Shown piece by piece: positions 1 through 24,868 of a stretch of DNA of 28,574 nucleotides. Below the pieces are notes generated by a model. It was not told the DNA's origin. It saw only the letters and a program-made list of their open reading frames with translations, and searched no databases. How positions within the stretch are numbered: position 1 is the stretch's first letter; each line of letters begins with the position of its first letter. The position numbers and the translations under genes were made by a program. Origin of the DNA: a virus; the IMG/VR virus record IMGVR_UViG_3300032294_002849, positions 1 through 28,574 of that record. The stretch is one strand, 5' to 3'.

Positions 1-3000
1 CAGAAAAATCAAGATAGTAATAACTACCTGTTTTTCCAATAGAAACGTAGTTGTTTCCCTGCCCTGGGGTAGCCTGGCCAATAACGATCTGGTTTGAGCC
101 ACCAGCCGCTGAAGCGCGCGCATCGACGCCTATAATGACGTTGTTTGCGCCTGTTGTCGTGGCAGTTCCGGTATAACCTGCGCCAGACCCAATAAATGTA
201 TTTCCAGCGCCCGTTGAAGAATATCCTGCGAAATAGCCCAGACCGACAAGGCCTGAGTTAGTCGTATTTGTATAAAGCGCTCCGTAACCTATAGCCGTAT
301 TATTTGCGCCTGTCGTATTGCTATATAAAGCCTGAGTGCCAATAGCCGTTTGATTGGACGATGTGCTGGAATTAAGAGCCTGAAAACCAATGCCGACGTT
401 ATTGTTTCCGGAAACATTTAACGCAAGAGCGTTGGACCCTACAGCAACATTGCCATATGCGACGTCAGATGTTTGAGAAGCGCCGGAGCCTATTGCAACA
501 TTATTATTCCCTGTAGTGCACGCAGTTAGGGCAAAATATCCAATGCCCATATTAGAAAAACCGGATGTATTTGCGAATAAAGTTGCCCAGCCAATGGCAA
601 CATTGTTATTGCCGTTGTTACTTTGCAAACAAGCGTGGCCAACCGCGACATTTGAATATCCTGACGTATTTGCGTTTAATGCATTATTGCCAACAGCAGT
701 GTTTTGATTACCATCAGTGTTTGATGCCAACGCGCCGTTGCCAATAGCCGTGCATTGAAGCCCGGTTGTATTTGCATTTAATGCAGAAACACCAAATGCA
801 GTATTTGTGGCAACAGCGTTTTTACCCTTACCGGCTCTCAAGCCATTGACGACCATGTCGCCTTGCGTTCCAAGAGAATAATTATTTGTAAGAGTTACGT
901 TTGATCCAGCCGTCGCTAACCCAATATATGTAGTGTAATAGTTAGTAAAGGTTGTAGAATTGGTCGCAGCAATTGTATTGCCGGAGAAAAGATTTGTATA
1001 ACCGTTTGCAACCGTTCCGCTTGAAGTTTTGTCTGTAAGCGTAACAGATGTGTCTTTGTATTTAATGCCGCTTGTAGTCCAGGCATTGGCGCTAATATTT
1101 CCGGAAAGCGCCAAAGATCCACCTGATACAGATATGCCGCCAATAGTAGCCGCGCCGCCCGTCCCAAGCCCGGTAGCTGTTAAAAGCCTGTTGGTATTAT
1201 CCCATGTAAGAGATGAGCTCTCCTGGAGAACTGAGCCAGAATCATACATAATTTGGCCAGAAGCACCTCCGCTCGTCGCTGTCGTCCCGACAGTTAACAG
1301 GCTAGTAAGAGCGGATGGAGCTGTCCAGGAAGAAACACCAGACCCATTGGTTGTTAAAACAAATCCATTCGTGCCAGCCGTGACGGGTAACGTCAGCGTC
1401 CACGCGGCGCTCGTCAAATTGCTGGACTGTAGCGTTACCGGGAAAGCGCCCGCAGCCGTATTGGCTAAGGTTAGCGTGCCCTGCGTTGTTTGCTGAACAC
1501 CAAGCGTCGGCGTTGCAGAAGACGTAACTGTGTTCGCCGATGCAGAAACAAGTAACGTCCCAGCAGTCGTTGTTGTCGGGTAAGTCGCTGTCGTTGCAGA
1601 CCAATTTGTGCCATCTGCACGCAAAATTGTGCCGGTTCCGGTAGCCGTGGACGGGAAGGCTGCTGTCGTCCAGGCCGTAACTCCGGAGCCGGTCGTTGTG
1701 AGAATCGTTCCGGAAGACCCATTTGATGACGGGAATTGGAAGATTGTCCCCGTTCCAGCCGCTGCGGCAGTCTGAAGCGTGACCGTTCCGCTTGTTCCGC
1801 CAGAAAGCGTAAGAGTGCCAGCCGCTGATCCCGGAACACCAAGAGTTGGCGTAGCAGTAAAAGCCGGAGAAGCGCCAGCAAGAACCTGACCGGCAGCTCC
1901 TGTAATGGAGATAGCGCCGGTGGCCGAATTAATCGAAAGAGGCGAAGAAGACGTAGACACCAATGTGCCGCTCAATGTCGGCAAATTAAGAGTAGGCGTG
2001 CCGGCAGTCGCTTGAGCAGAAATAGTAGCTGTGCCGCTTGTGGACCCCGTAAGAGCAACAGCGCCTGTAGCAGAAGCAGCAACGCCGATTGTAAGTGTGC
2101 TTGATGAAAAGGTTAAATTGGCGCTTTCCTGAAGGACATTTGAAGCGCCTTCAAACAGCAACCTACCCGCAACGCCGTTTGTGATGGCGGTCGTCCCAAC
2201 ATCCAAATCAATTCCGAGAGACGTAGGGTTGGTCCAGGACGAAACGCCGGATCCATTTGTCGTTAAAACAAATCCATTTGTTCCGGGGTTTGTCGGGAGA
2301 GTAAGCGTCCAGGACGCAGATGGATTGTTGCCTGCCTGGATTGTTGTCGTATATGCAGATGCAGAATTAGCGAAGGCAATAGAGCCCGTAGATGAAGAAG
2401 CCACACCCAGCGTAGGGGTAGCTGTAAACGCGGGAGAAGCGCCAGCAAGAACCTGACCGGCAGCTCCTGTGATCGAAATAGCGCCTGTTGTCGAATTAAT
2501 GGACAAGGGGGAGAATGACGTAGAAACCAAAGTGCCGCTTGTATCAGGCAAATTTAACGTTGGCGTGCCTGCTGTTGCCTGCGCAGTAATTGTAGCTGTT
2601 CCGCTTGTTGATCCCGCAAGAGCGATTGATCCAGTGGCTGAAGCCGCAACGCCGATTGTAAGTGTGCTTGATGAAAAGGTTAAATTGGCGCTTTCCTGAA
2701 GGACATTTGAAGCGCCTTCGAACAAGATTCTGCCGACTGTGCCGTTCGTGATAGCCGTAGAACCTATATCCAGATCAATCGCAAGAGACGTGGGATTTGT
2801 CCAAGACGAAACGCCGGATCCATTTGTTGTTAAAACAAATCCATTTGTTCCGGCACTTGTGGGGAGCGTTAATGTCCACGATGCAGAAGGATTATTTCCG
2901 GCCTGTATTGTCGTCGTATATGCAGATGCAGAATTAGCAAAAGCAATGGAGCCAGTAGATGAAGAAGCCACACCAAGGGTTGGCGTAGATGTAAAAGCAG

Positions 3001-3769
3001 GCGTCGAGCCGGCAAGGACTTGTCCGTTAGCCCCGACGATTGAAATTGCGCCAGTGGTCGAATTAATCGACAACGGAGACGATGCTGTGGAAACAAGCGT
3101 TCCGGTTGAAGTCGGTAGCGTAAGATTCGGAGTTCCAGCAACCGCCTGCGCGGTAATAGTAGCAGAACCACTCGTCCCGCCGGCAAAAGAAATAGACCCA
3201 GTGGCCGAAGCGGTTTTGCCGATTGTAAGCGTGCTAGAAGCAAATGTCAGATTTTCGCTTTCTTGAAGGACATTTGATGCTCCCTCAAAAAGAAGGCGAC
3301 CAACAACGCCATTGGTGATGACCGTTGAGCCAATGTCCAGATCAATGCCAAGAGCCGTCGGATTTGTCCAGGCAGTAACGCCGCTGCCATTGGTCGTTAA
3401 AACATAGCTATTAGACCCGGGAGACGTTGGTAGCGTCAGGGTCCATGCCTGAGAATTAGAATTAGAAGATTTAATCGAAGTATATTTTGAACCAGAAGCT
3501 TCGTTGTTTAATACAAGCTCGCCTTGAGTCGAAGAATCTATTCCTAGCAGGATTTTTGATAAACCATCAGTCAATACGCCATTGGACCCACCAAAAAGCC
3601 CGGCATCATTATATTGCAAAGAGAAAAACGGGGCAGATGGAGACCTGAGAAGAGTCGCTATTTGAACCGTTGTAATTCGGACGGATGTTCCGCCCTGAAC
3701 AGCCTCAAGTTGCTCTTGTCCGTCAAGGGCAATAGCAGCCGGGAGATTAGGGATCTGAACATTCGCCAT
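1..3769 (-). CDS. Giant tail fibre / adhesin, 3' end outside window
   Basis: An uninterrupted minus-strand frame of 1256 codons starts at ATG 3769 and runs off the left edge without a stop. I read it codon by codon. The start follows a purine-rich GAGAGACAAAA leader. Residues about 1-125 form the N-terminal part that probably attaches to the virion. Residues about 130-810 are Ser/Thr/Gly-rich beta repeats, including two exact-length 189-residue units with signatures such as SPLSINSTTGAISI and NGFVLTTNGSGVSSWT. Residues about 980-1240 carry short repeats of the type NVAIGxxALxxNTxGxN, the pattern of YadA-like trimeric adhesin head domains. Such phage fibres often end in a self-cleaving intramolecular chaperone, which would lie outside the window. 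It probably forms a homotrimer that binds the host surface. It is the last gene after the tailspike. Confidence in fibre identity is high; the receptor is unknown. Confidence 0.88.
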   Translation of the reverse strand, partial: MANVQIPNLPAAIALDGQEQLEAVQGGTSVRITTVQIATLLRSPSAPFFSLQYNDAGLFGGSNGVLTDGLSKILLGIDSSTQGELVLNNEASGSKYTSIKSSNSNSQAWTLTLPTSPGSNSYVLTTNGSGVTAWTNPTALGIDLDIGSTVITNGVVGRLLFEGASNVLQESENLTFASSTLTIGKTASATGSISFAGGTSGSATITAQAVAGTPNLTLPTSTGTLVSTASSPLSINSTTGAISIVGANGQVLAGSTPAFTSTPTLGVASSSTGSIAFANSASAYTTTIQAGNNPSASWTLTLPTSAGTNGFVLTTNGSGVSSWTNPTSLAIDLDIGSTAITNGTVGRILFEGASNVLQESANLTFSSSTLTIGVAASATGSIALAGSTSGTATITAQATAGTPTLNLPDTSGTLVSTSFSPLSINSTTGAISITGAAGQVLAGASPAFTATPTLGVASSSTGSIAFANSASAYTTTIQAGNNPSASWTLTLPTNPGTNGFVLTTNGSGVSSWTNPTSLGIDLDVGTTAITNGVAGRLLFEGASNVLQESANLTFSSSTLTIGVAASATGAVALTGSTSGTATISAQATAGTPTLNLPTLSGTLVSTSSSPLSINSATGAISITGAAGQVLAGASPAFTATPTLGVPGSAAGTLTLSGGTSGTVTLQTAAAAGTGTIFQFPSSNGSSGTILTTTGSGVTAWTTAAFPSTATGTGTILRADGTNWSATTATYPTTTTAGTLLVSASANTVTSSATPTLGVQQTTQGTLTLANTAAGAFPVTLQSSNLTSAAWTLTLPVTAGTNGFVLTTNGSGVSSWTAPSALTSLLTVGTTATSGGASGQIMYDSGSVLQESSSLTWDNTNRLLTATGLGTGGAATIGGISVSGGSLALSGNISANAWTTSGIKYKDTSVTLTDKTSSGTVANGYTNLFSGNTIAATNSTTFTNYYTTYIGLATAGSNVTLTNNYSLGTQGDMVVNGLRAGKGKNAVATNTAFGVSALNANTTGLQCTAIGNGALASNTDGNQNTAVGNNALNANTSGYSNVAVGHACLQSNNGNNNVAIGWATLFANTSGFSNMGIGYFALTACTTGNNNVAIGSGASQTSDVAYGNVAVGSNALALNVSGNNNVGIGFQALNSSTSSNQTAIGTQALYSNTTGANNTAIGYGALYTNTTNSGLVGLGYFAGYSSTGAGNTFIGSGAGYTGTATTTGANNVIIGVDARASAAGGSNQIVIGQATPGQGNNYVSIGKTGSYYYLDFS
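60..825 (-). repeat. YadA-head-like short repeats in the fibre C-terminal half
   Basis: About fifteen imperfect repeats of 14-20 residues follow each other in the fibre frame, with cores such as TAVGNNALNANTSGYSN, NVAIGWATLFANTSG and TAIGTQALYSNTTGANN. The (V/I)G step followed by AL and N-T-x-G matches the left-handed parallel beta-roll of trimeric autotransporter heads. At DNA level the copies are strongly diverged. Confidence 0.8.
1680..3377 (-). repeat. Three tandem ~567-bp in-frame repeat units in the fibre gene
   Basis: The anchor ACGCCG (ACTCCGG in the oldest copy) recurs at 1680, 2244, 2811 and 3378. The spacings are 564, 567 and 567 bp, i.e. 188, 189 and 189 codons. A shortened copy begins near 1335, 345 bp away. 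Each unit encodes the same order of beta motifs. The exact codon multiples show in-frame duplication of a protein module. Confidence 0.9.
2079..2719 (-). repeat. Pair of identical 74-bp segments 567 bp apart
   Basis: Bases 2079-2152 and 2646-2719 are identical over 74 bp. They encode the segment ending in GASNVLQESANLTFSSSTLT. Flanking bases diverge, so this is the most recently exchanged or most conserved part of the tandem units. Confidence 0.88.
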
Positions 3770-9232: not shown

Positions 9233-9636
9233 TATTTCTTTCCTTCTCTCGTCGCCCCGGAGGGCGAAACAGGCCACGACTCACGCGCGGGCCCTGTCTT
9301 TTTTCTGGCAATAGACTTTTTCTGCTCTTTGGACATTGCCGCAGCGGCGGCGGCAGGACGACATGCCGGATAAGGACGACTGCCCTTTTCTCCCGGTATC
9401 CTACCACACTCCTTGCCGGTTTTCACATCTCGCCAATCTTCCGCAAACCATTTCCCAAGGCCGCCACCAGTAGCCTTATTGACGCGATTATCTGAACCGG
9501 ACCATTTACCGCCGCGGGATTTATACCATTTCGCCGCCCATGCGTTAGCATAGGCTGACGGATAAACGTCAAATTTGGCGCGAGCCGCAGCCTTGGCCCT
9601 GCCCCACAAACCAGAATTTTGAGGCTTGGCCGTCAT
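9232..9636 (-). CDS. Small basic conserved protein (DUF5872-like)
   Basis: Start set at ATG 9636 (134 aa), overlapping the previous stop as TGATG; a start at 9648 would lie deeper in the previous gene. Sequence signatures are KFDVYPSAYANAWAAKWYK, WFAEDWRDVKTGKECGR and PYPACRP, followed by a Lys/Arg-rich tail (MSKEQKKSIARKKTG). The YPSAYAN plus EDW-x-D plus CGR and CRP combination matches, from memory, the DUF5872-type proteins of environmental phages and some viruses. Function is unknown; the basic character suggests nucleic-acid binding. It is the first of a chain of coupled genes with its partner at 9636-9905. Confidence 0.66.
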   Translation of the reverse strand: MTAKPQNSGLWGRAKAAARAKFDVYPSAYANAWAAKWYKSRGGKWSGSDNRVNKATGGGLGKWFAEDWRDVKTGKECGRIPGEKGSRPYPACRPAAAAAAMSKEQKKSIARKKTGPARESWPVSPSGATREGKK

Positions 9637-9905
9637 CAGCAGTCCCACTTCCGGAGCGACTTGTTGATTCGGCTATTCGGGTCAGCCGCAGCCGCAGAGC
9701 CCGTCAGCTTCTTTTTCATGCCGGTCATGCGCGCACAAAATGACTTACGCCGACTTGCCGCCTTGTCGCTCTTTGCGGCCTGCTCTTTTGATACAGGCGG
9801 CTTCAGGTTCATGCCCTGAGCCTTCGCGGAGCGCCGGCCAGCCTCATTAAGGCCGCCTTCAGGATTCTTCCCGGCCTTCCGGGTCCATGCAGGACTTTTA
9901 ACCAT
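9636..9905 (-). CDS. Small basic conserved protein (DUF6321-like)
   Basis: ATG 9905 (89 aa) is preferred over the frame opening at 9944 because it follows AGGAAA and gives the family-like N-terminus VKSPAWTRKAGKNPEGGLNE. The longer version would run through the terminator hairpin. Further signatures are KSFCARMTGMKKKLT and DPNSRINKSLRKWDC at the very end. This fits the DUF6321-type proteins I recall from aquatic phages and viruses, usually encoded near other small basic proteins. Function is unknown. It lies immediately after the hairpin at 9921-9947, so it either depends on read-through or on an unrecognised promoter. Confidence 0.68.
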   Translation of the reverse strand: MVKSPAWTRKAGKNPEGGLNEAGRRSAKAQGMNLKPPVSKEQAAKSDKAASRRKSFCARMTGMKKKLTGSAAAADPNSRINKSLRKWDC

Positions 9906-9920
9906 TTTCCTGATCCCGGG

Positions 9921-9947
9921 AAAAAGGTGGGGCCGCAGCCCCACCTT
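9921..9947 (-). terminator. Rho-independent terminator after the KGGK gene
   Basis: Arms 9924-9933 and 9938-9947 pair perfectly over 10 bp around a 4-base loop. On the minus strand the stem ends in TT and is followed by TTT. It sits between the stop at 9963 and the start at 9905, so it would stop or reduce late transcription here. Confidence 0.75.
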
Positions 9948-9962: not shown

Positions 9963-10208
9963 TTAGTAATGCGACGCCTTGCCGCGCGGCGTGCCGCTAT
10001 GCGCCGACGAGAAGACGCCGCCGCCCGTAGCGCGAGCAGGCTTCTTGCCCTTGGCCGCCTCAGACATGACGGCCTTACCGCCCTTCTTCATGCAGCCGGA
10101 CTTGCCGCCATAAGCCTTTTCGGCCTTGCCGCCCTTTTTAAAGCCGTTGGTGCCGGACTTCGCAGATTTGACGACCGCCGGGCCGTCCTGACCTTCGTAA
10201 AAACCCAT
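9963..10208 (-). CDS. Small basic KGGK-motif protein
   Basis: This 81-aa protein has a very good ribosome-binding site (AGGAGG) upstream of ATG 10208. It carries FKKGGKAEKAYGGK and CMKKGGKAVM, and a Gly/Ala/Lys composition. The same KKGG spacing dominates the 449-aa protein at 15221-16570, suggesting a shared module or a common partner. It may be a virion-packaged basic protein; no catalytic domain is visible. The gene is isolated between the beta-helix protein and a strong terminator. Confidence 0.7.
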   Translation of the reverse strand: MGFYEGQDGPAVVKSAKSGTNGFKKGGKAEKAYGGKSGCMKKGGKAVMSEAAKGKKPARATGGGVFSSAHSGTPRGKASHY

Positions 10209-11312: not shown

Positions 11313-12224
11313 TCAGGTCGGGGTCGATCCGAAGATCGAGCGCCAGTTGTAGTAGCCGAACGAATAACGCTCGTAGCCTTTGACCAGCAGGTTGTCCGTA
11401 ACGAAATCGACCTGCATGTCGGTTTCGAAGCGCACGCGCTCCATATACGACAGGCCATCGATGTTCGTCAGCAGGAACCATGCACGCGCCGAGGTCAAGA
11501 AGTCGTTGACCATGTAGCCTTCCGGCAGGCCGCCGGCCGTCATCATGATCGCGTTGACGTCGTTGTTTGCCGTGCCCGGACGGAGTTCCGTCTTGGTAAG
11601 GCGGATCGCGACGGGCTCCAGCGCCGGCGGGATAACAAGACGACGACCGCGGGCGAAGACCTTCAGGCCAGCCTGATCCTTGAAGTTCGTCCTGATCGCG
11701 ATCATCGCGTTCAGAAGCGAAGCTTCGTTAAGATCAACCTGAACAGCAGGCGTATTCGCAACGGTGCCGCTGTCGATCGGGTGCGAAGAGCTCAACAGAG
11801 GAACGCCGTCGCCGCCAATCGAGGCATTATACGTCGTCGCCGTGTTAAGAACATTCGCGCCATAGATCTCCTTGGTCTGCTGGAAAGATTCCATCAGGCC
11901 GAGGTTTGACGGCATGAACTGCGTCTTATACACGTTGTCGTCGATCGCCTTGCGGGTGATCGCGTAACCGAGAGCAATTTCGACATGCTCCTGGTTATAC
12001 ACGTAACGCTCGCCGGCGTTATTGTCGAAGGCAGTCTGGCCGCCTTCGGTCTTCAGCTGGGCAAGACCCAGGAAGCGCATTTCCGCCGTGCGCTCGAGCG
12101 CCATTTTGGAATCGTGCTTCGTGAAAATCTTGTCGTACTGAGACGGGATCATCTCATACTTGCCTTCGATCCCCCGGAGACCGGGAAGGAGAAGGTCTTT
12201 AATAGCCGAAAGATTAACAGCCAT
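11313..12224 (-). CDS. Major capsid protein
   Basis: This 303-aa protein follows AAGGAGTAAGGA upstream of ATG 12224. The N-terminal half contains GKYEMIPSQYDKIFTKHDS, then EHVEIALGYAITRKAIDDN and LMESFQQTKEIYGANVLNTA. The middle carries PLLSSSHP. These are the hallmarks of the Mu gpT-like, HK97-fold major head subunit family, and the length is typical. The C-terminal LLVKGYERYSFGYYNWR closes the protein. It would form the icosahedral shell. It is cotranscribed with the decoration-like gene from a promoter at 12962-12990 and closed by a terminator, giving separate high-level expression. No separate prohead protease was recognised nearby. Confidence 0.87.
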   Translation of the reverse strand: MAVNLSAIKDLLLPGLRGIEGKYEMIPSQYDKIFTKHDSKMALERTAEMRFLGLAQLKTEGGQTAFDNNAGERYVYNQEHVEIALGYAITRKAIDDNVYKTQFMPSNLGLMESFQQTKEIYGANVLNTATTYNASIGGDGVPLLSSSHPIDSGTVANTPAVQVDLNEASLLNAMIAIRTNFKDQAGLKVFARGRRLVIPPALEPVAIRLTKTELRPGTANNDVNAIMMTAGGLPEGYMVNDFLTSARAWFLLTNIDGLSYMERVRFETDMQVDFVTDNLLVKGYERYSFGYYNWRSIFGSTPT

Positions 12225-14519: not shown

Positions 14520-14912
14520 CTACCAGGCAGAATCAGGAGACGGAATACGCATTTTTACCTGCGTATCAGCCATCATACGGCACAAGACGCCATTAACATT
14601 GATGCTCCAACCATCTGATGGCCGGAAAACCAGCCAATCGTGCAGATTAAAGCTTGTATTGTTGAACCATGCGCCGGAATCATCCTGAAACGCAGCTGGC
14701 CCCATGCCGACAAGAAGACCAACCTTGCCCTGATAGCGGTCTTCATCAATAGTTTTGTCGGATAGATACAATCCGCTCTTTGTTTTGGTTGGCCGGACAT
14801 AGACTGCAACGAGAATCTGATTATTGAAAATTTCAATATTTGATATATCGCCCAGATCTTCGAGCAGCTTACGCTTCGGGTCAACATCATGGTCCATAAG
14901 CAAAGCTGGCAT
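14520..14912 (-). CDS. GroES-like phage co-chaperonin
   Basis: This 130-aa protein matches the layout of GroES-fold co-chaperonins. A beta strand NQILVAVYVRP is followed by TKTKSGLYLSDKT, comparable to the mobile-loop region where GroES has a hydrophobic tripeptide. Then come YQGKVGLLVGMGPAAF, matching the GEVLAVGNG strand, and later DWLVFRPSDGWSI, matching the VGDIVIF-x-DGYG section. It would cap host GroEL and help fold capsid or other virion proteins, as T4 gp31 does. It lies directly upstream of the scaffold. Identification is by aligned motif order; no search was done. Confidence 0.75.
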   Translation of the reverse strand: MPALLMDHDVDPKRKLLEDLGDISNIEIFNNQILVAVYVRPTKTKSGLYLSDKTIDEDRYQGKVGLLVGMGPAAFQDDSGAWFNNTSFNLHDWLVFRPSDGWSINVNGVLCRMMADTQVKMRIPSPDSAW

Positions 14913-15211: not shown

Positions 15212-15233
15212 TCGCGACAATTACTTGTCGCGA
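15212..15233. other. Perfect 9-bp hairpin over the KKGG gene stop codon
   Basis: Arms 15212-15220 and 15225-15233 are perfect, with the stop codon (15221-15223) in the 4-base loop. A T-tract (GCTTTTTT) follows on the plus strand, not the minus strand. It would therefore stop antisense rather than sense transcription, or protect the mRNA 3' end. Confidence 0.5.
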
Positions 15234-16570
15234 GCTTTTTTCGCTTTCGCGATATCTGTCTTCTGCAAGCGCCCTTCGCCGTCACCAGCGCCAGCCGTCA
15301 TATCTTTATAGGATTTGGCGACCTTGCTGATTCGACCGCCAGCCTTGCGGGCCGGAGCATCCCGGTGATGCTTTGCAATGTCGGTCTTCTGGAGGCGGCC
15401 TTCGCCCGAGACAGCGCCAGCTTCCATGTCCTTGTAGGACGAAGCAACCTTTGTAATGCGCCCACCAGCCTTGCGCGGCATCGGCAGACCAGCAGCGCCG
15501 GGAAGCATAGGCGGCATGCCCGCTCCCATCATTGCCGGCGGAGGAGCCGCTGGCACCGGAACAGGCACGGCGCCATCACGCGGAGGCTGCATCGGCATGT
15601 CTTCTGAAGGATGCCGGCGCTGACCAGCCGCAATCACAATGTTGATGTTGGTCTTGCCCTTGCCTTTCGTGCGGCCGCCAGACTTGCGACCCGGGCGATC
15701 TTCCGCGGCACCGCCATGAGCCTTCTTCAGGCCCTTCAGCGTCATAGCAAGACGCGCACGCTTGCCAATCTTGCCGGGCTCTTCAGCGGCCTTCTCCAGC
15801 TTCTTCGCCGGGATGGTTTCGCCTTCCTTGACCTTCAGAGCCTTGCGCAACGCGCCGGGCTTCTCAATGGCTTTCTGGATCCACTTTTTTGGCGTTCCGC
15901 CTTTTTTGTAGCCACGCTCCATGCGCCGGAGCTGATCAGACTCATAAAGGTCGCGCGCTTCTGGCTCGCGTGGGCGCCTGTCTTCAATGTCCCGCGGGCG
16001 CATGACTGAGCGGCCGCGCTCCGTGACCGACTCCGCGCCGACATAGCTCGGATCCTTGCCGCCCATGGCGCGGCCAGCCTTACCGCCCTTTTTGTAATGC
16101 TCTGCGGCGGCGCGCTTTGGCTTCACCTGAATCGTGCCGACGCGATCCTTCTCGAGCATCGTTTCCTTGTCGGACGGGACAGAACCGCCCGTGGCGCGCT
16201 TCGCCATGCCACCCTTTTTGAAAGCGCCGACATGCTTGATGCCCTCGCGCTCTTCATTGGCGGCGCGGACGTCGCGATTAACTTTGGCGTTTGCGTATTC
16301 CTTTGCGTCCGCCTCCACCTTGCCGCCAGCCTTGCGCGGCTTGCGATCGGCGCGAGCATGCACGGCGGCGCCGGAAACCTTGCCGCCCTTATTGTAAAGA
16401 CGGGCCTTGCCCACGGGGCGAGCGCCAGTTTTGACATCGGCGTTCAGCGGCTCTGCGGGCGTCCAATCAGCCTGCGTGGTATCCTGATCCTTTTTCAAGG
16501 TTCCCGGCGAAGCAAGCATCCGGGCTTTCGCCTTCAGCTTCTCGCGGGCCGATTTGGCCATGGCATACAT
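15221..16570 (-). CDS. KKGG-repeat basic polyvalent-type protein
   Basis: This 449-aa protein (start ATG 16570, GGAG 9 bp upstream) is very basic and low in hydrophobic content. It contains scattered motifs FKKGGMAKRATGG, YKKGGKAGRAMGG, YKKGGTPKKW, YNKGGKVSG and RKAGGKVEA. About the middle lies IQKAIEKPGALRKALKVKEG followed by PAKKLEKAAEEPGKIGKRAR and LAMTLKGLKKAHGG. I recall that helical segment from large virion proteins of many phages. A Pro/Met-rich linker follows, then two 42-residue tandem copies (366-407 and 408-449) starting RKAGGRI. It probably binds DNA or is packed into the head with the other polyvalent proteins. No enzyme motif is seen. Confidence 0.72.
   Translation of the reverse strand: MYAMAKSAREKLKAKARMLASPGTLKKDQDTTQADWTPAEPLNADVKTGARPVGKARLYNKGGKVSGAAVHARADRKPRKAGGKVEADAKEYANAKVNRDVRAANEEREGIKHVGAFKKGGMAKRATGGSVPSDKETMLEKDRVGTIQVKPKRAAAEHYKKGGKAGRAMGGKDPSYVGAESVTERGRSVMRPRDIEDRRPREPEARDLYESDQLRRMERGYKKGGTPKKWIQKAIEKPGALRKALKVKEGETIPAKKLEKAAEEPGKIGKRARLAMTLKGLKKAHGGAAEDRPGRKSGGRTKGKGKTNINIVIAAGQRRHPSEDMPMQPPRDGAVPVPVPAAPPPAMMGAGMPPMLPGAAGLPMPRKAGGRITKVASSYKDMEAGAVSGEGRLQKTDIAKHHRDAPARKAGGRISKVAKSYKDMTAGAGDGEGRLQKTDIAKAKKARDK
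15224..15475 (-). repeat. Tandem 126-bp duplication encoding 42-residue units
   Basis: Two in-frame copies (15350-15475 and 15224-15349) encode RKAGGRI(T/S)KVA(S/K)SYKDM followed by AGA, GEGRLQKTDIAK. The AGCCTTGCG anchors at 15341 and 15467 are exactly 126 bp apart. DNA copies are diverged, so the duplication is old and maintained as protein. Confidence 0.85.
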
Positions 16571-16609: not shown

Positions 16610-19045
16610 CTAACGCGGAAGCCCTGATAATACAGCAAGTGCGCGCCTAATTATAGAGCCTCCGCGGTCGTAATTGACTGCGCCGCCCTTTTCGTAGGCC
16701 GGGAGCCCCTTCAGGATGGCGGCGCGCATGCGCGGCGTGATCTCAAGAGAGTGCAAATCGTAGTTTTTTTCGTCACCATCATCTTCGTAAGAGATGTTGA
16801 ACTTCCCGAACTTCGCGTCCGGATCAAGCTTTGAAACAAGTTTCTTCATACGCTGCGGGACGAGGCGGTCGTAGTAGCCCCTCATGCCTTCGCCGCCGAT
16901 AGAAAGATCCTGACCTCGCAAATGATGCGTGGCCATATTGCCGGATATCTCCGGCTCCTGCTCCAAAAGGCGTGAGGCGACTTCCTTGCCAAGGTATTTT
17001 TCAAGCTCGTCCTTCTCCACCTTATGGCCGAGAGCTTCAGAGCCATCATGCGTGATTGCGCTCAGGATTTTATTGTCAGGCGACCACATGACGTGCTTGA
17101 CCTGATTGCTCAGGTCATACCGCTCTGCCTGATCCTTGCCGGGCGTCCAGACAAGCTTCTTGTAGCCGCCTTCAGCCGCCTCGCGCAGGGCGCGCTTCAG
17201 AGCAAGGTCGGTCCAGCTTTCTGTTGATCCGATATGCGGGCCGGGCAGAACAGCAGAATGACTCTTTGTCCGTTGGTCATAACGGGCTTCTCTGTAATCT
17301 CTCAAGGCGTTAAATTCTTCCTGAGAAATAACTCCTTGGGAAAGCAAGTGAATTGCTTCTCGCCCAGAATGGTTTTCCAAAAAATCTTCGCGAGTTCGCA
17401 TATTTTGCGGAAGAAATTTATTTCCCCCAAGAGATAATATTTTATCAGCCGCATCCTTCGCTTCGTTTGAAGCTTCTATAGCTGGTGGCTTTATGCCATG
17501 CTCGCGGGCATCTTGCCCCCAATCGCTTTGTATCTCCTCAACATGCAAAATCTTTCCGCCCATAGGCTCGCGGCGATCTGACATGCGAAGATGAGCGACG
17601 ACGTTAGGGACGTTCCAGTGGGAGGATTCATAATTTTCTGGATCTTTTTGAGACGCAATAATATTTTCATAAGTTGCGTGCTCATCATCAGACATCAAAC
17701 CAGACCATCGCTCCCCGTATTTTTCCTGCATTAATTTGGCATATTTTGCAGCTTTTTCGGCACCAGAAGTGTCGATCTTTTTCGGCAAATGCAGCAGGAC
17801 TTCCCGGTAATTTTCTCCATCTGGGATTGTGTATGCAGCATATTTGGCAGCATTTTCTTTGCGCCATGCAGGATTGTAGGTTTGCGCTATTGTATCCTTC
17901 ATGGCCTCCGCTTCATCGCTTTGGCCATTAAAAATCAAAGATTGCCTTTTTGCGTGCAACTTATTGACGAGGGCGATAGGATCATATTTCACCGTCTCCT
18001 GAATCTGTGGCAGATTTTCCTGAAAATGCCGCGCAACTTCCTTCGGATCCACGCTCTTCTGCCCAGCAAAAGCGTCTCTAACGCCTGACCAATCAAGCTC
18101 TTCGGCTTTGACATTGGGCGATCCTTTTATCTTGTTCAGGATCTGGTCAATCGGGGCGCGCTGGGGCATTGTGCTGGCCGCCTCGGCTGCGGCGCTGTAA
18201 AGGCCCATCGGCGTCAGGTTTCTCGCCGTTTCTACCGCCTTCTGCGCGTCCGACTGCCGGGCCGCTCCAGCAACAGAGAGAGCCTGATTAACAGGATCGT
18301 CAATTGCGCCGCCCTCAGCGCGAGCAAGAGGGCGACCGATTGGAGCAACGGCGTAGGACCAAAGAATAAGACGGCGCGCCATATCTTCCGGGTCATCGCG
18401 AAGCTCAATCGGGTTGATGGCGCCGCCGTAGGATTTTGCAGTCTTTTTGCAAGCTATAATTGCCCCTCGGGAAATCTCAGCTTCCGGAAAAACAGACTTT
18501 ATCTCCGAAAGATATGATGCAAGCTTTCTGTTTTCTTGCCATCCATCTCGCGTTGATGTCCCTATTCCGCTGCCATTCCCTTCATATACCGAAAAATAAG
18601 CCTCGCTATCTGGCTTTAAATATTTATGGGCGTTTTTAATAACGCTCATTCTGTGTTCGGGCTCTTTAATTACATTAAGGACATTAGCTACCGTCGCCAT
18701 ATCTGCGGGGGTTTCGGTAAACTCGTCATGAACCGAATTGTTATGCTCTTCTGTTCTATTAAATGGATCAAATACCTTACTGCTTATTTTATATTTATCG
18801 CGGAGGTGCTCTGTCCCCTTATCAAAGCGACCGCCACCGATATCAATATTTCTGGCGTTTTGTTTGCCGGAAAACGCAGGGTGGTTAAATAAAGCAGGAA
18901 CCTGATTGCGAGATGTTTTCGCAGAATTAAATTCCTGAACCGCCTCAATTCCCATTGCAGGCCGGATATCTTCGTGCGTTTCAACAGCGCTGAAAGGCTC
19001 GACGCCCGTCGCGGGCATTATGTCGTCATGCGTATCGACGGGCAT
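16610..19045 (-). CDS. Methyltransferase-like domain fused to polyvalent-protein region
   Basis: This 811-aa protein starts at ATG 19045 after AAGAGG. Residues 5-32 contain a duplicated THxDIxPAxG motif. Residues about 50-202 look like a class I SAM-dependent methyltransferase: NIDIGGGRFD (67-75, motif I-like), FDPFNRTEEHN (92-102), ATVANVLNVI (117-126), then SVYEGNGSG and GWQENR, and REG-like ISRGAIIACKK. Residues 300-811 resemble large polyvalent protein-associated regions: WNVPNVVAHLRMSDRR, HVEEIQSDWGQ (501-511), WTDLALKRALREAAEGGYKK (611-630), QAERYDLS and EGMRGYYDRLVP (719-730). The end is AYEKGGAVNYDRGGSIIRRA. It probably travels in the virion or modifies host or phage molecules. Substrate is unknown. 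The architecture itself is the notable point. Confidence 0.72.
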   Translation of the reverse strand: MPVDTHDDIMPATGVEPFSAVETHEDIRPAMGIEAVQEFNSAKTSRNQVPALFNHPAFSGKQNARNIDIGGGRFDKGTEHLRDKYKISSKVFDPFNRTEEHNNSVHDEFTETPADMATVANVLNVIKEPEHRMSVIKNAHKYLKPDSEAYFSVYEGNGSGIGTSTRDGWQENRKLASYLSEIKSVFPEAEISRGAIIACKKTAKSYGGAINPIELRDDPEDMARRLILWSYAVAPIGRPLARAEGGAIDDPVNQALSVAGAARQSDAQKAVETARNLTPMGLYSAAAEAASTMPQRAPIDQILNKIKGSPNVKAEELDWSGVRDAFAGQKSVDPKEVARHFQENLPQIQETVKYDPIALVNKLHAKRQSLIFNGQSDEAEAMKDTIAQTYNPAWRKENAAKYAAYTIPDGENYREVLLHLPKKIDTSGAEKAAKYAKLMQEKYGERWSGLMSDDEHATYENIIASQKDPENYESSHWNVPNVVAHLRMSDRREPMGGKILHVEEIQSDWGQDAREHGIKPPAIEASNEAKDAADKILSLGGNKFLPQNMRTREDFLENHSGREAIHLLSQGVISQEEFNALRDYREARYDQRTKSHSAVLPGPHIGSTESWTDLALKRALREAAEGGYKKLVWTPGKDQAERYDLSNQVKHVMWSPDNKILSAITHDGSEALGHKVEKDELEKYLGKEVASRLLEQEPEISGNMATHHLRGQDLSIGGEGMRGYYDRLVPQRMKKLVSKLDPDAKFGKFNISYEDDGDEKNYDLHSLEITPRMRAAILKGLPAYEKGGAVNYDRGGSIIRRALAVLSGLPR

Positions 19046-19253: not shown

Positions 19254-20666
19254 TTATTTCCCCTTCCCTGCTTGCGGCTTGATGCTGACCCTGAAGTTGG
19301 TGGCAATCGGATTGCCATCCTCGTCGCGCTCAAGCGTGCCTTTCGGCGTTTTCTTGAACTGCGGATCATACTTAACAAAGAAACCCTTGGATTCGACATG
19401 CGCCGTGTCGTTCTTACTGGCGACGTTCTTGTTCTTCAGGCCGACAATGACGCCCTCTCCGGGGTTTTCAATACTGTCCAGCGGCCGGAAGTCATGCGTG
19501 TCGCCAGAAATTACGCGATAAACCTTGCCGGTCTCCTCGTCGTGAACTTCCTGCGGGATGGCGTCCTTGTGGCTAAATGCCATGGCAACATTGTTGCCCT
19601 GATCCAGACGCCGGCGCATCTCTTTCCAATTGCTGTGCGGGTTATCAACGCCCTCCTGAGAGACGCCCGTTGAAGAATAGGTGTAATGATGATTTGGCGC
19701 GACAGGATCGTAGCCCATTTTGGTGTAATCGTAAAAGTCAACTTCCGGATGGCCTTTAATAATCGGCTCAAGAATCTTGGGGCTCAGGTCAGAAAGAACA
19801 TTCAGGCGCACGCCAAGCTTGTTGCCGTTATATTCTGCCTCGCGCTTGGCGCTCTGAATTTCATCAAACAGGCGAACAGCAAAAGCTTCCGGCTCCTGCA
19901 ACATCGCAATCGTTTTGTTCAGGCTGTTAAGGCGCGGTCCCTTGAATGCGTCAAGGTCGCGGCCGCCACCAACTTGGAAATAATTGCCTGACGTCTTGCC
20001 AAGGCATTCGTCCTTGCAGGACGCATGATTGGGGCACGTCTGGAAGTTGCCCATCTTGAACGCCGGAGCCAACGCAAGGCCGGTCGTCTCAACGCCCATG
20101 CCGTCAACTTCAAGCGGCTTTCCGCCCTTGTAGCCGGCCTCCGCCTTCATAAGCTTCTCGTTGCGGCCCAGAAGCGGGACAGGCTTGCCGTCCTTGCGCA
20201 TGCCGATATACGGCGCCAGCTTCTCAATAGCCGACTTCGTGTTAGCGACGCGCTCCTTGTAGGGGAGGTTCATATGTTCTTCGATAGCTTTATTGAACGC
20301 GTCCGTTAGCGTCTGGACGCGAGGCATGTTCGCCTCTTCCTCAGCACGCTCCGCCCATGGGGCGCCTTCCGGAACATTATACATAGAGCCAAGCGTTGGC
20401 TTCGGCTGCATCCCGACACGCCCCTCAAACGGGCTTTTGGGCGGCGGCGCAGGCGCGGGCATCGGCATCTGTGGCGCTGCTTCAGGAAGCGATCTGGCGA
20501 CATCCATAGCCCCGACGACAGGCTCTTCCGGCATGCCGCCCTTCGCCATCACCTGACGCCCGACATGCGGCATATATTGCGTCGGATATTCGTCCTCCAG
20601 AAGCCGTCCGCCTCTGGCCATTTTGGCAATACGAAGCGCCTGATTAATGAGATCAAGCCTGCTCAT
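19254..20666 (-). CDS. GP88-like protein with CxxxxxCxxxC motif
   Basis: I chose ATG 20666 (470 aa), after GGGAG, over ATG 20684; it overlaps the portal stop by 14 bp. The N-terminal 110 residues are Pro/Met/Gly rich and include ARGGRLLEDEYPTQY and MAKGGMPEE. From about residue 200 the family core appears: TCPNHASCKDECLG (Cys 211, 217, 221), RLNSLNKT, GVRLNVLSDLS, HPEVDFYDYTK, HHYTYSSTG, NNVAMAF, VISGDTHDFRPLD and GVIVGLKNKN. This sequence of motifs matches phage proteins named gene product 88. The Cys cluster followed by VRLNxxSD and FYDYTK suggests a metal- or iron-sulphur-binding enzyme. Such proteins are often near replication or metabolic genes; here it sits in the head module. Confidence 0.72.
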   Translation of the reverse strand: MSRLDLINQALRIAKMARGGRLLEDEYPTQYMPHVGRQVMAKGGMPEEPVVGAMDVARSLPEAAPQMPMPAPAPPPKSPFEGRVGMQPKPTLGSMYNVPEGAPWAERAEEEANMPRVQTLTDAFNKAIEEHMNLPYKERVANTKSAIEKLAPYIGMRKDGKPVPLLGRNEKLMKAEAGYKGGKPLEVDGMGVETTGLALAPAFKMGNFQTCPNHASCKDECLGKTSGNYFQVGGGRDLDAFKGPRLNSLNKTIAMLQEPEAFAVRLFDEIQSAKREAEYNGNKLGVRLNVLSDLSPKILEPIIKGHPEVDFYDYTKMGYDPVAPNHHYTYSSTGVSQEGVDNPHSNWKEMRRRLDQGNNVAMAFSHKDAIPQEVHDEETGKVYRVISGDTHDFRPLDSIENPGEGVIVGLKNKNVASKNDTAHVESKGFFVKYDPQFKKTPKGTLERDEDGNPIATNFRVSIKPQAGKGK

Positions 20667-22986
20667 TCGGAACTCCCGGGACATTTAACAGCGGCGGCTC
20701 CTCGCCCTCCAGCTGCGCCATCATTTCAGGCGTCAGAACCTGTTCAAGCAATGGGGCCGACTGCGGGTTTGCAATCAGCTCTTTGGCAAGATTAATCGCC
20801 GCAAGTCGCTCGCGAGTTTCGCGATCGCGTTGGCGGTTGGCCGCATCAAGCCGGGCGTCAATCGCGCGCGACTCAATCTCTTGCTGGCGCACCTGAAGCT
20901 CGGCCGCCTTCATGGCGTCGCCCTCCTGATCCGCGCCGACAACGCCTCCGCCGGTCGCCCGCATCTGTATTTCCTGCGCCTTGGCCTGCGCCGTCAGCAT
21001 GCGGGAATCCGCGTCCTGCTTCTTGATCTTCAGTTCTTCAATTGCCTGAATCATCTGCGGCGGCATCTGGCCCTGCGCTTCCGCCGGCGCCATAAACTGC
21101 TCCGGATTGCTCCAGCCCATAGCCTTCATGGCGGCAATGTCGATCTGCTTGGGATCATACATTGCGGGGTTCGCCTGTTGCAGTTGCTTCAGGGCCATAA
21201 TCTTCATCATGCGCTGCGTCTGGCTCGCCGTATTCGGGTCCGCCTGAGGGACCAGATCGCAGTTGTCCAAAGCCTGAATGAAGGTTTTTTCGTCCCAATT
21301 CCGGCACGCCTTCTTGTTCCGGCCCCAGAAAGACTCAGGATGCTCCCGGAAACAACGCACCAGCAATGCAAACTCTTCAGCCTGCGCCGCATGCAGTCGC
21401 TTGTGGACGCTGTTCAGGATCTTCGTCGCCTGATCAATCAGCGCAAGCGTCGTCCCGACAGGCGCGTCCGCCCTGCCCTCGCCAACCTGCAATTCGCTGG
21501 TCGACCCGACACGCTGGCCGGTTTCAACCATGTATTGAACAAGGTTCATCAGGGCCATGCCGGGCTCCTTGTAGGGTAGCGGCATGACAGCCTGATTGAT
21601 CGGAACGCCTCCGGTTTTTACAAGGGCGCCGCCGCCGGGCGGCACGCGGAAGATGTTGGTGTTTTGCCGGGCTCCCGTGTCTGCCATCAGGAAGCCCGGA
21701 AAATTGGCATACATGCCGGCGTCAAGCATTTCCCTTACGGCCGCTGTGACCGCATTCGTGGTATTACCCAGAATATGAAGTAGACCGATATCGTAAAACC
21801 CCATACCAGGCACAAAGGTAAACTTGACAAAATTCGTTCTGGACTCAGGCAGCTCGTCGCCTTCCTGTCCCGTCGGCTCGTCATAATTCCTCACGATCGA
21901 GAGGATTTCGCGAGACGACGCATCAATCGTTACGCGATAGGGGATTTCGAGACCCGTGACTTTCCCCTTATAGCGATGCTCAAATCCGCTGATGTCGAGC
22001 TCGCAATATATCTCGTAGATTTCCCGGTCACGGTCATCGGCATTAAACGTATCCACTTTGATGCCCTGAACATCCGCCTTCTCTCTCTGGACGGCGTCAG
22101 GCTGTTCCGGCTTTGGCGTCGAAAGATTGATGTCGCGGTAGACGCCCAGAATCTGTAACCGCCGGACTGTAGATGGGCGCATAAAAACGCGATGCGTTAT
22201 ACGCTTCGCGTCAGAAAGCGCCGTCGCCGCGTTATTGACTATCAGGTCGTCGGCGTCGACCGTTTCACTGACGGGCCTGCCCCGCAGCGGACAGTAGTAA
22301 ACCTTTTTGAAAGCCGTCCCGCCAAAGCCGAACATGAACAACATGCGGTCGGTGTCGGGGTAATATTCCTTGGCGATCGACGTCAGATAGTGATTCAGAT
22401 CCGTCTCGAGAGCATGCGCCATCTGATCCTGCTTCAGGGTCGTCTCGGCGCTTTCGCTTTTAACCTTTACCGGGCCGTCCGTAGGCAACATCTCGCTGCG
22501 GGCATTGGCCTGAAAACGAAGAACCGCCTCGAGCAGAAGCGGGTGGCGAACCTTTGACATGCCCTCGACCGGCGCGCCGTCAGCGGCCCCCTGAAGGCCG
22601 GGGATCTCTACCTTCAGGCCAAGAAGCTTGATGCCCTGCGCCCGGTCTTCAATCCAATCCTGCCGGCTGTCCAGATCGTCCTGCACGCCCTTCAGAAGTT
22701 CTTCCGCAATGCGGCCAAGCTCGAACTGGTCGATTTCGTCAACGAGGTTGGAAAACCATTCCCTGGCCTTATCTGCGTCGCCGACCCGCTCAACAGGCTC
22801 GCCATCAAGCGAAACGCTCAAGGATCCGTCGTCGTGCTCAATGCGCAGAATGTTGCCCCGATCGTCCGTCTCAGGTTTGTCAACGTCGTTAAGAATTTCA
22901 ACGAGGACGTCTTCCGCCGGCGCGAGCCCCGCGACCTCCCCCTCTGACTGCCGGATTGCGGGATTAAGGCCGGGAACCATTGGCAT
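20653..22986 (-). CDS. Portal protein
   Basis: This 777-aa protein has the size and composition of podoviral portals. ATG 22986 follows AAGGAAATTAATT. The N-terminal part contains LVDEIDQFELGRIAEELLKG and the conserved-looking MSKVRHPLLLEAVLRFQANARSE. Mid-protein are DRMLFMFGFGGTAFKKVYY, DADDLIVNNAA and FVPGMGFYDIGLLHILGNT. Towards the end are GSTSELQVGEGRADAPVGT and TLALIDQATKILNSVHKRLH. The C-terminal 180 residues are a Gln/Ala/Glu-rich helical region (barrel-like). It would form the dodecameric DNA channel at the head vertex and bind the terminase. It lies downstream of the large terminase with one small gene between, the usual order. Confidence 0.85.
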   Translation of the reverse strand: MPMVPGLNPAIRQSEGEVAGLAPAEDVLVEILNDVDKPETDDRGNILRIEHDDGSLSVSLDGEPVERVGDADKAREWFSNLVDEIDQFELGRIAEELLKGVQDDLDSRQDWIEDRAQGIKLLGLKVEIPGLQGAADGAPVEGMSKVRHPLLLEAVLRFQANARSEMLPTDGPVKVKSESAETTLKQDQMAHALETDLNHYLTSIAKEYYPDTDRMLFMFGFGGTAFKKVYYCPLRGRPVSETVDADDLIVNNAATALSDAKRITHRVFMRPSTVRRLQILGVYRDINLSTPKPEQPDAVQREKADVQGIKVDTFNADDRDREIYEIYCELDISGFEHRYKGKVTGLEIPYRVTIDASSREILSIVRNYDEPTGQEGDELPESRTNFVKFTFVPGMGFYDIGLLHILGNTTNAVTAAVREMLDAGMYANFPGFLMADTGARQNTNIFRVPPGGGALVKTGGVPINQAVMPLPYKEPGMALMNLVQYMVETGQRVGSTSELQVGEGRADAPVGTTLALIDQATKILNSVHKRLHAAQAEEFALLVRCFREHPESFWGRNKKACRNWDEKTFIQALDNCDLVPQADPNTASQTQRMMKIMALKQLQQANPAMYDPKQIDIAAMKAMGWSNPEQFMAPAEAQGQMPPQMIQAIEELKIKKQDADSRMLTAQAKAQEIQMRATGGGVVGADQEGDAMKAAELQVRQQEIESRAIDARLDAANRQRDRETRERLAAINLAKELIANPQSAPLLEQVLTPEMMAQLEGEEPPLLNVPGVPNEQA

Positions 22987-23221: not shown

Positions 23222-24868
23222 TTATATGGGGTAAAGCGGATCGTTCTCTTCAGCCGATCGACCGCGGTGCATCATACTATCGTCAACCGCTGCTGTGAAC
23301 TCTGCGCCTCTGACAAGGAGGCCGATATCGCGCAAGTGCTTCAGCGACATGGAAACCGTATCGACAAGGTCATCGTGCTTCGACCGCGGGAAAGAGGCGC
23401 ACTGGTTTATGACCGTTTCCGCCCATGACCTGTCCGGCGCGTGGATCAATCCTTCATAAAACAGATGCTGGATTGAATAGAACCGGGCGACCTTGTCGGC
23501 GCCCTTCGGGTCAACGAGCTGCACAAAAAACTCCTCATGGCCATACAGCCGGCGCAGCTCCTGCGCCACGCTGATGCCGGAAGCCTTGCTCTCGACAAGT
23601 AGCTTCTCAACGCCGTATGACGACATTGTGTCCTGTATTTTTTCGATCAGGTCGTGGAACTCCAGCCTTTCAGACCATGCGTAAATCAACATGGCCTTCG
23701 GGTGCTCCTGCGTATAGGTGCGCTCCAGAACCGCCATGACGTCCCCCTGGCGGTTCGGCTGACGGGTGATCTGCGCCGTCTGATCGCCACCCGTCCAGAC
23801 GCCCCAGACGGTCATGGCTGAAGGATCGTTTTCTGTTTTTACCGTGTAGGCTGTATCGACCGACGCGATTATGTAATCGAAGGGCGGGTATGACGCCTGA
23901 TCCCAGAGCCTCCACCATTCTCGCTTGACGATACCGCCTCCGCGTGGCTCGGGAGATTGCTGATGCTGCCCGGCTGTCGCGTATGGCCCCATAGCGAGTT
24001 CATCCCGATCGACGACAGATTCGGGAAAACGAGACGGAAAAAGAAGCTGGCCTTCTCTTTTTCTGGGATCTTCAATGCCGAGCATTGTCGGGAATGCTCG
24101 CCCCGGGTCGTAGCGCATCGGAAGCATAATATGGTCATACGGGAGCCCCTTCTCCAGAATGATGCCGCTTGTGTCTTCCTCATGCAGGCGTTGCATGATG
24201 ACGATGATCGCCGATTCCATTGGCTTGTTGATGCGGCTGGGAACGGCCTCGAGGAACCATTCCCGCCGGCTCTTGCGGACGGCGTCGGACGCCGCATCCT
24301 CGACGCTGAGAGGGTCGTCGATGATCACCCTGTCGCCACGGGCGCCAGTGATCGACCCTGCGGCGATCGCCTGCCGGAAGCCTGTCGCGGTCGTCTCGAA
24401 TTTTGTCTTCTGGTTCTGATCCCGCGCGATCTTTACCCGATCGCCCCATCGATCCTGATACCAATCCGATTCGATCAGGCGGCGCATTTTGGTCGAATCG
24501 CGGATGGCGAGATCCAACGAATGCGACGCGCAGACATACCGCATGTGCGGCATGTTGCGCGGGCCCCATTCCCATGCCGGCCAGAATACGTTTGTCAAAA
24601 GCGACTTCATCATGCCTGGCGGCACGTTGATCAGGAGGCGATTATATCTGGATCCGTCGTCCAGTTCGACGCCGTCTGTGATGGCCTCGAGGTGCTCGGC
24701 GATCATATTGACGTGCCAATTGTGGAAATATTCCGCGCCCGGCTCAACAACATGCCACGCTTGCCTGATGAACTCGCAAAGATCTTCTTCGCATTCGGCG
24801 GCGCTGATTTCGATCAGTTGCCGATCGATATCAATTGCGACGCCTTCGATTTTAATTATCTTGTTCAT
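23222..24868 (-). CDS. terL: Terminase large subunit
   Basis: This 548-aa protein has a Walker A-like motif VPPGMMKS at 82-89 and a Walker B VIIDDP at 181-186, with GSITGARGDR just before. The C-terminal nuclease shows SVDTAY (first acidic residue at 338), LLVESKASG (about 423-431) and SKHDDLVDTVSM (acidic pair at 499-500). Motif order and length fit the T4/P22-type packaging motor. It translocates DNA into the prohead through the portal and cuts the concatemer. The Walker A has Met in place of the usual Gly/Thr-containing loop, a common deviation. It overlaps the upstream 66-aa gene by 17 bp, and its own ribosome-binding site is weak. Confidence 0.92.
   Translation of the reverse strand: MNKIIKIEGVAIDIDRQLIEISAAECEEDLCEFIRQAWHVVEPGAEYFHNWHVNMIAEHLEAITDGVELDDGSRYNRLLINVPPGMMKSLLTNVFWPAWEWGPRNMPHMRYVCASHSLDLAIRDSTKMRRLIESDWYQDRWGDRVKIARDQNQKTKFETTATGFRQAIAAGSITGARGDRVIIDDPLSVEDAASDAVRKSRREWFLEAVPSRINKPMESAIIVIMQRLHEEDTSGIILEKGLPYDHIMLPMRYDPGRAFPTMLGIEDPRKREGQLLFPSRFPESVVDRDELAMGPYATAGQHQQSPEPRGGGIVKREWWRLWDQASYPPFDYIIASVDTAYTVKTENDPSAMTVWGVWTGGDQTAQITRQPNRQGDVMAVLERTYTQEHPKAMLIYAWSERLEFHDLIEKIQDTMSSYGVEKLLVESKASGISVAQELRRLYGHEEFFVQLVDPKGADKVARFYSIQHLFYEGLIHAPDRSWAETVINQCASFPRSKHDDLVDTVSMSLKHLRDIGLLVRGAEFTAAVDDSMMHRGRSAEENDPLYPI

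Follow-up and report, generated by a model that had tools for sequence, protein, structure and literature searches.

The DNA analysed here (the window) is a single metagenomic contig, IMG/VR record IMGVR_UViG_3300032294_002849, positions 1 to 28,574. On balance, we favor the view that P0001, a large open reading frame within it (Table 1), encodes a polyvalent cargo protein of the late head operon, packaged and ejected, that joins a SAM methyltransferase acting on something other than DNA to a GNAT-like module. P0001 would be made late as a cargo protein, enclosed in the particle, and delivered into the host together with the phage DNA. In the newly infected cell, the methyltransferase may methylate host RNA, protein or a small molecule, and would thereby weaken a defence or turn host machinery to other ends; the role of the GNAT-like module may be to acylate another target or, alternatively, to bind a partner or ligand. 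Phages inject proteins before expressing genes of their own, and, to our knowledge, few of the injected proteins have known activities.

The P0001 ORF is real and under purifying selection. It reads from an ATG at 19045, with AAGAGGTTAGAG before it, to a stop at 16610. A preliminary description of this DNA had placed a two-domain protein here without giving its strand, and the ORF is as described, with every motif present: DIGGGRFD, DPFNR (residues 93-97), NVLNVI (121-126), HVEEIQSDW, and GEGMRGYYDRL (718-728). The nearest full-length relative, L003, comes from a separate contig with the same gene order as the window. Between the two proteins, dN/dS is 0.17 in the methyltransferase region (residues 1-204), 0.30 in the C-terminal module (271-811), and 0.56 in the linker (205-270). 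Low values on both sides of a faster linker are the pattern expected of two constrained domains with a spacer. P0001 is known from one metagenomic contig and its Pfam match is under the cut-off, as might be seen with a chance similarity or an assembly artefact, but the probability of either is practically nil: L003 is full length in the same gene order on another contig, the predicted model is of high confidence, and relatives number in the hundreds, which together refute that reading. With the whole protein as query, phmmer finds no match in PDB, and scans of Pfam, NCBIfam, PADLOC, and PHROGs return a sub-threshold methyltransferase, a PHROG labelled endolysin, and nothing else. The endolysin label is dropped because the structural matches of the labelled region point to other folds.

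Table 1. Features of P0001 and of its neighborhood in the window (residue numbers are those of P0001).
Feature	Position	Strand	Evidence
P0001, whole ORF: methyltransferase, linker, and GNAT-like module, 811 aa	16610..19045	-	ORF call, purifying selection
Class I SAM-methyltransferase domain (predicted), residues ~41-204	18434..18925	-	predicted model, Foldseek and VIA matches, family alignment
Motif I (DIGGGRFD), residues 68-75, a loop predicted to bind SAM	18821..18844	-	D, G, G, G invariant in 60 homologues
GWQENRK, residues 168-174, motif specific to this family, following strand 5	18524..18544	-	family alignment, Q invariant
RRLILWSYAVAP, residues 224-235, inter-cargo spacer motif of portal-proximal slot proteins	18341..18376	-	46 matches in 8381 frames, 23 distinct
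Small helical domain opening the C-terminal module, residues ~279-347	18005..18211	-	predicted model, alignment
GNAT-like fold (predicted) with large insertions, residues ~348-780	16706..18004	-	mean pLDDT of module 88.6; VIA-align Z up to 10.1
HVEEIQSDW, residues 501-509, strand 4 and next turn of the GNAT-like core (predicted)	17519..17545	-	alignment, model
Terminase large subunit	23222..24868	-	PHROG 38, 1.9e-82
Portal protein	20653..22986	-	PHROG 1216, 9.8e-30; Pfam SU10_portal
GP88-domain gene directly upstream of P0001	19254..20684	-	Pfam GP88, 1.3e-17
LLEDEYPTQYMPHVGRQVMAKGG, near-invariant peptide on the GP88 protein	20535..20603	-	common to slot proteins with different cargo
Lysine/glycine-rich (KGG) 449-aa protein, downstream bound of slot	15221..16570	-	conserved synteny
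GroES-like protein	14520..14912	-	Cpn10 sub-threshold, synteny
Major capsid protein	11313..12224	-	PHROG 371, 3.9e-12

A high-confidence predicted model (mean pLDDT 87.7) gives residues 41-204 a class I SAM-dependent methyltransferase fold. A methyltransferase had been proposed here from motifs, and the proposal stands: the predicted fold is of the Rossmann type and its structural matches are methyltransferases. The leading Foldseek matches in PDB are SAM methyltransferases, with Trm9-Trm112 (5cm2) as the best (E 3.8e-7), and in VIA-align comparisons Z reaches 12.6, with 829 of 1000 chains at 8 or above. In 60 aligned homologues, D68, G70-G72, and D93, the acidic residue after strand 2, are invariant, and NVLNVI is invariant or nearly so. 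The HMM search suggested for residues 50-202 gives Methyltransf_23 (PF13489), at 24.8 bits for P0001, below the 27-bit gathering cut-off; the relative L046 scores 41.6 bits, above it. Trm9 is also the best, if weak, profile match in PDB. With Trm9/METTL6-type and other Methyltransf_23/11-type enzymes the domain shares the predicted Rossmann fold and the SAM-site motifs, but identity is about 21% or less, and NVLNVI and T-x-x-x-G-W-Q-x-N are unique to the phage family. The substrate cannot be read from the structural neighbors because many of them, small-molecule and RNA enzymes alike, are tied within Z 1 of each other, and assignment from the best Foldseek match, Trm9, is rejected on that ground.

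DNA is an unlikely substrate, judging from motifs. Neither the amino-methyltransferase motif (N/D/S)PP(Y/F/W), which includes NPP(Y/F), nor the C5-methyltransferase motif PC(Q/E) is found in P0001, and Pfam finds no LPD36 or SF2 helicase partner in it. With no amino-methyltransferase motif and no helicase partner, action on DNA is improbable, and of the targets named earlier (host DNA, RNA or protein) the first is not borne out. These results also bear on the possibility that P0001 is a virion DNA methyltransferase that, like DarB, shields the incoming genome against restriction. DarB is found in the head of phage P1, and the text of Iyer et al. (2017, PMC5512222) describes the methyltransferases of polyvalent proteins as mostly monophyletic TaqI/EcoKI-like DNA adenine enzymes, the best known methyltransferases of such proteins. 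P0001, however, lacks the motifs and partners just named, and its family matches Methyltransf_23-type enzymes and not DNA methylases, so a DarB-like role is quite improbable. The family is set apart from the TaqI/EcoKI-like enzymes by that text description, and it may figure in the paper's supplementary domain list. Two other candidate identities were rejected. The methyltransferase of Caulobacter phage KcrB, considered as a cultured relative, does not match the family profile, and the dnd_rel_methyl identity of some relatives, raised by an NVLNVI-like resemblance, scores far under its cut-off. The annotation of KcrB (L272, 2445-5248) splits the terminase large subunit in two around this small methyltransferase gene, which has an NPPW motif.

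For the C-terminal module, structure prediction gives a GNAT-like fold interrupted by large insertions. As we read its secondary structure, strands and helices over residues ~348-780 follow each other as in a GNAT, the insertions coming after strand 2, strand 4, and helix 4. The matches returned by VIA-align against PDB are nearly all GNAT folds. The best is the C-terminal domain of ICL2 (Z 10.1, 2.3 A over 127 residues), which we take to be an acetyl-CoA-binding regulatory domain and no acetyltransferase; further matches include one at Z 9.8, NatD (8.4), NatA (8.1), and many more. In predicted strand and helix order, and at Z up to 10.1, the module is thus like members of the GNAT superfamily such as the ICL2 domain, NatD, and SSAT. 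Unlike them, it has large insertions and lacks both the canonical pyrophosphate loop and a sequence-profile match. Foldseek against PDB gives E 0.05 at best. In hhalign, comparison with a small, 17-sequence alignment of Acetyltransf_1 gives a probability of 0.1% and no profile support. The C-terminal profile finds nothing credible among PDB sequences, and no credible Pfam family matches the module, including residues 450-811 searched separately as had been suggested. The canonical acetyl-CoA loop, R/Q-x-x-G-x-G/A, has no match at strand 4 in P0001; near strand 4 it is matched in 14 of 68 homologues of the module. In view of the Foldseek value, the negative profile comparison, and the absent loop, we call the module GNAT-like and not a GNAT acetyltransferase. 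In the preliminary description it was a polyvalent-protein region: that kinship holds, and the unspecific label gives way to a specific predicted fold.

The absent loop leaves room for the reading that neither fold is catalytic, both being structural domains for the virion or for ejection. GNAT-like folds can be non-catalytic, and chimallin is among the weak matches to the C-terminal module. Conservation argues the other way. The SAM-site residues are invariant in 60 diverse homologues and the methyltransferase domain has the low dN/dS given above; in the C-terminal module, 73 aligned homologues keep the E, E, Q, S, D, and W of HVEEIQSDW, and other polar residues, nearly unchanged. Inert folds are accordingly an unlikely explanation of both domains.

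The relatives of the two modules tie P0001 to polyvalent proteins. Relatives of the methyltransferase domain in IMG/VR number seven loci when searched by single sequence and 211 by profile, and those of the C-terminal module at least 574. By these searches, neither Pfam nor NCBIfam, the libraries covered, has a dedicated model for the methyltransferase family. The family is rare in annotated phage records, where it occurs in one uncultured huge phage and in Vibrio T4-like phages. Some copies of the domain stand alone; others lie inside proteins as long as 3881 aa, at positions that differ from protein to protein. In a set of 21 proteins that host the domain, the Pfam matches are ART-PolyVal (in seven), LPD23 (in three), and InPase, LPD39, LPD3, LPD22, PBECR3, GP88, and HIRAN (in one each); in P0001 itself no LPD domain is matched. 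The viral structures that match the C-terminal module are phage proteins, several of them named GP88, ART-PolyVal-like or LPD. P0001 has the hallmarks of a polyvalent protein, namely disparate domains (as predicted folds) in one polypeptide beside portal and terminase genes, and the relatives of both modules link it to the known domain network through ART-PolyVal, LPD23, PBECR3, and InPase. The kinship suggested at the outset is therefore strongly supported by the ART-PolyVal, PBECR, InPase, and LPD domains of the relatives together with the place of the gene in the head operon.

In the polyvalent proteins as described in the text of PMC5512222, unrelated domains likewise share one polypeptide beside portal and terminase genes, and the methyltransferase relatives share theirs with ART-PolyVal, PBECR3, InPase, and LPD domains. 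There are two differences. The P0001 methyltransferase is not of the TaqI/EcoKI-like DNA adenine type described there, and, whereas RimI-like GNATs are described in the same text among polyvalent-protein domains, the GNAT-like module has no detectable relation to an Acetyltransf_1-type profile, the one profile with which it was compared. P0001 would add to polyvalent cargo proteins a variant in which a methyltransferase unmodelled in the searched libraries is combined with a predicted GNAT-like module.

The gene order on the minus strand is terminase large subunit, portal, GP88-domain protein, a 65-aa ORF, P0001, the lysine/glycine-rich protein, a GroES-like protein, a scaffold-like protein, and major capsid protein. 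In phage isolate ct7L0027 (MW202675), the order is the same and the position of P0001 holds the C-terminal module only. The portal protein of the window retrieves 80 loci, 40 of which have an intact interval from portal to KGG protein, in 29 distinct arrangements. The GNAT-like module is present in 13 of the 40 and the methyltransferase in three, and other proteins fill the rest, some with ART-PolyVal (below the cut-off), LPD23 or PBECR5 and some without a known domain. Judged by its gene content, the interval is a hypervariable cargo slot within a conserved head operon. In L025, methyltransferase, C-terminal module, and GP88 are fused in one protein of 1339 aa, so that the GP88 gene and P0001 of the window look like a split version of it. 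Three cysteines (C-x5-C-x3-C) of the GP88 domain, together with RLN..SD, FYDYTK, and N.H.T.SSTG, are conserved in 90% or more of 19 sequences; on the strength of this pattern, an iron-sulfur or radical-SAM-like barrel deserves consideration.

Two short peptides recur among proteins of the slot regardless of their cargo. RRLIxWSYAxAP, followed by GG, occurs in 23 distinct forms in slot proteins of differing cargo, and in P0001 it lies between the two domains. The other, LEDEYPTHYLPxVGRQVMADGG (~22 residues; 32 distinct), is carried by the proteins encoded immediately downstream of portal genes, with any cargo, among them the GP88 protein of the window and proteins of L002, L020, L021, L112, L219, and L266. 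We would guess from their distribution that the two segments are candidate packaging or processing signals. The slot and its tag peptides may reveal how these heads select cargo.

Packaging in the head is also suggested, independently of the polyvalent-protein argument, by the start of standalone relatives. A T4 protein needs no more than its first ten residues to be targeted to the head; residues 4 and 7 are decisive for that step, and residues 8 and 10 decide processing (PMC9026906). T4 IPII and IPIII start with MKTYQEFIAE, and standalone methyltransferases on large contigs start in the same register, MK-x-F-x-x-F-L-x-E (MKTFKQFLFE, MKSFKSFLVE, MKKFKEFLRE, and similar). A pattern that fixes the decisive T4 positions at the start codon, xKx[FY]xxF[ILVFM]xE, has 23 matches among 76,556 candidate starts in the loci scanned with it. 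Eleven of the 23 are methyltransferases (nine distinct) and the other 12 are neighbor genes in the same group of loci; on a T4 segment the pattern matches IPII and IPIII only. The likeness to the T4 internal head proteins (IPI, IPII, and IPIII) extends to this neighborhood, as standalone relatives adjoin further genes with a capsid-targeting start. Unlike the T4 proteins, which are not methyltransferases, P0001 and the polyvalent versions have no targeting sequence: P0001 starts with MPVDTHDDIM and no T4-type sequence is found in it. The targeted copies form one clade (100/100) on a long branch among polyvalent copies, and this signal therefore stems from one other lineage. A gp23-type capsid protein and a gp21-type protease are present on L058, L062, and phage KVP40 records, the other records checked for such markers being shorter and fragmentary; the methyltransferase copy of KVP40 is divergent and matches over only part of the domain. 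A literature search found no paper with virion proteomics of a relative. Runs of neighbor genes with T4-type targeting starts are seen at L046 7425 and 8530, L062 5109-6686, and L067 1888 and 5573, and are probable clusters of injected proteins in T4-like contigs.

These observations bear on whether P0001 leaves the producing cell with the phage. Its gene sits among structural genes, from portal to scaffold, and a late enzyme could act locally in assembly, methylating capsid, portal or scaffold in the producing cell or on the particle, with no injection. However, the slot is hypervariable whereas the structural genes are conserved, the module accompanies early-effector domains such as ART-PolyVal and PBECR3, and the T4-like copies carry a head-targeting sequence. 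A non-injected late enzyme is, in our judgment, rather unlikely, and P0001 is probably carried in the particle and injected. A broader reading has about an even chance of being right: that the methyltransferase domain represents a widespread virion-delivered family of non-DNA SAM methyltransferases with at least two packaging routes, T4-type targeting on standalone copies and fusion into portal-proximal polyvalent cargo proteins, joined here to a new and divergent family of GNAT-like injected enzymes. The methyltransferase family is compact (~170 residues) and strongly conserved, and recurs both within giant cargo proteins and as standalone copies in T4-like phages, where the recognised head-targeting sequence makes delivery and activity testable in cultured phages. 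For the very common phage module EIQSDW ... GEGMxGYYD, which is unannotated in Pfam, the predicted fold provides a lead.

Elsewhere in the window, lysine/glycine-rich proteins with KKGGK and RA-x-GG repeats are encoded at 9636-9944 and 9963-10208 as well as at the downstream bound of the slot. A repetitive protein of 1256 aa, on the minus strand at 2-3769 and cut by the window end, has trimeric-adhesin-like AxGNxAL repeats near its visible C-terminal part and is a probable tail fibre.
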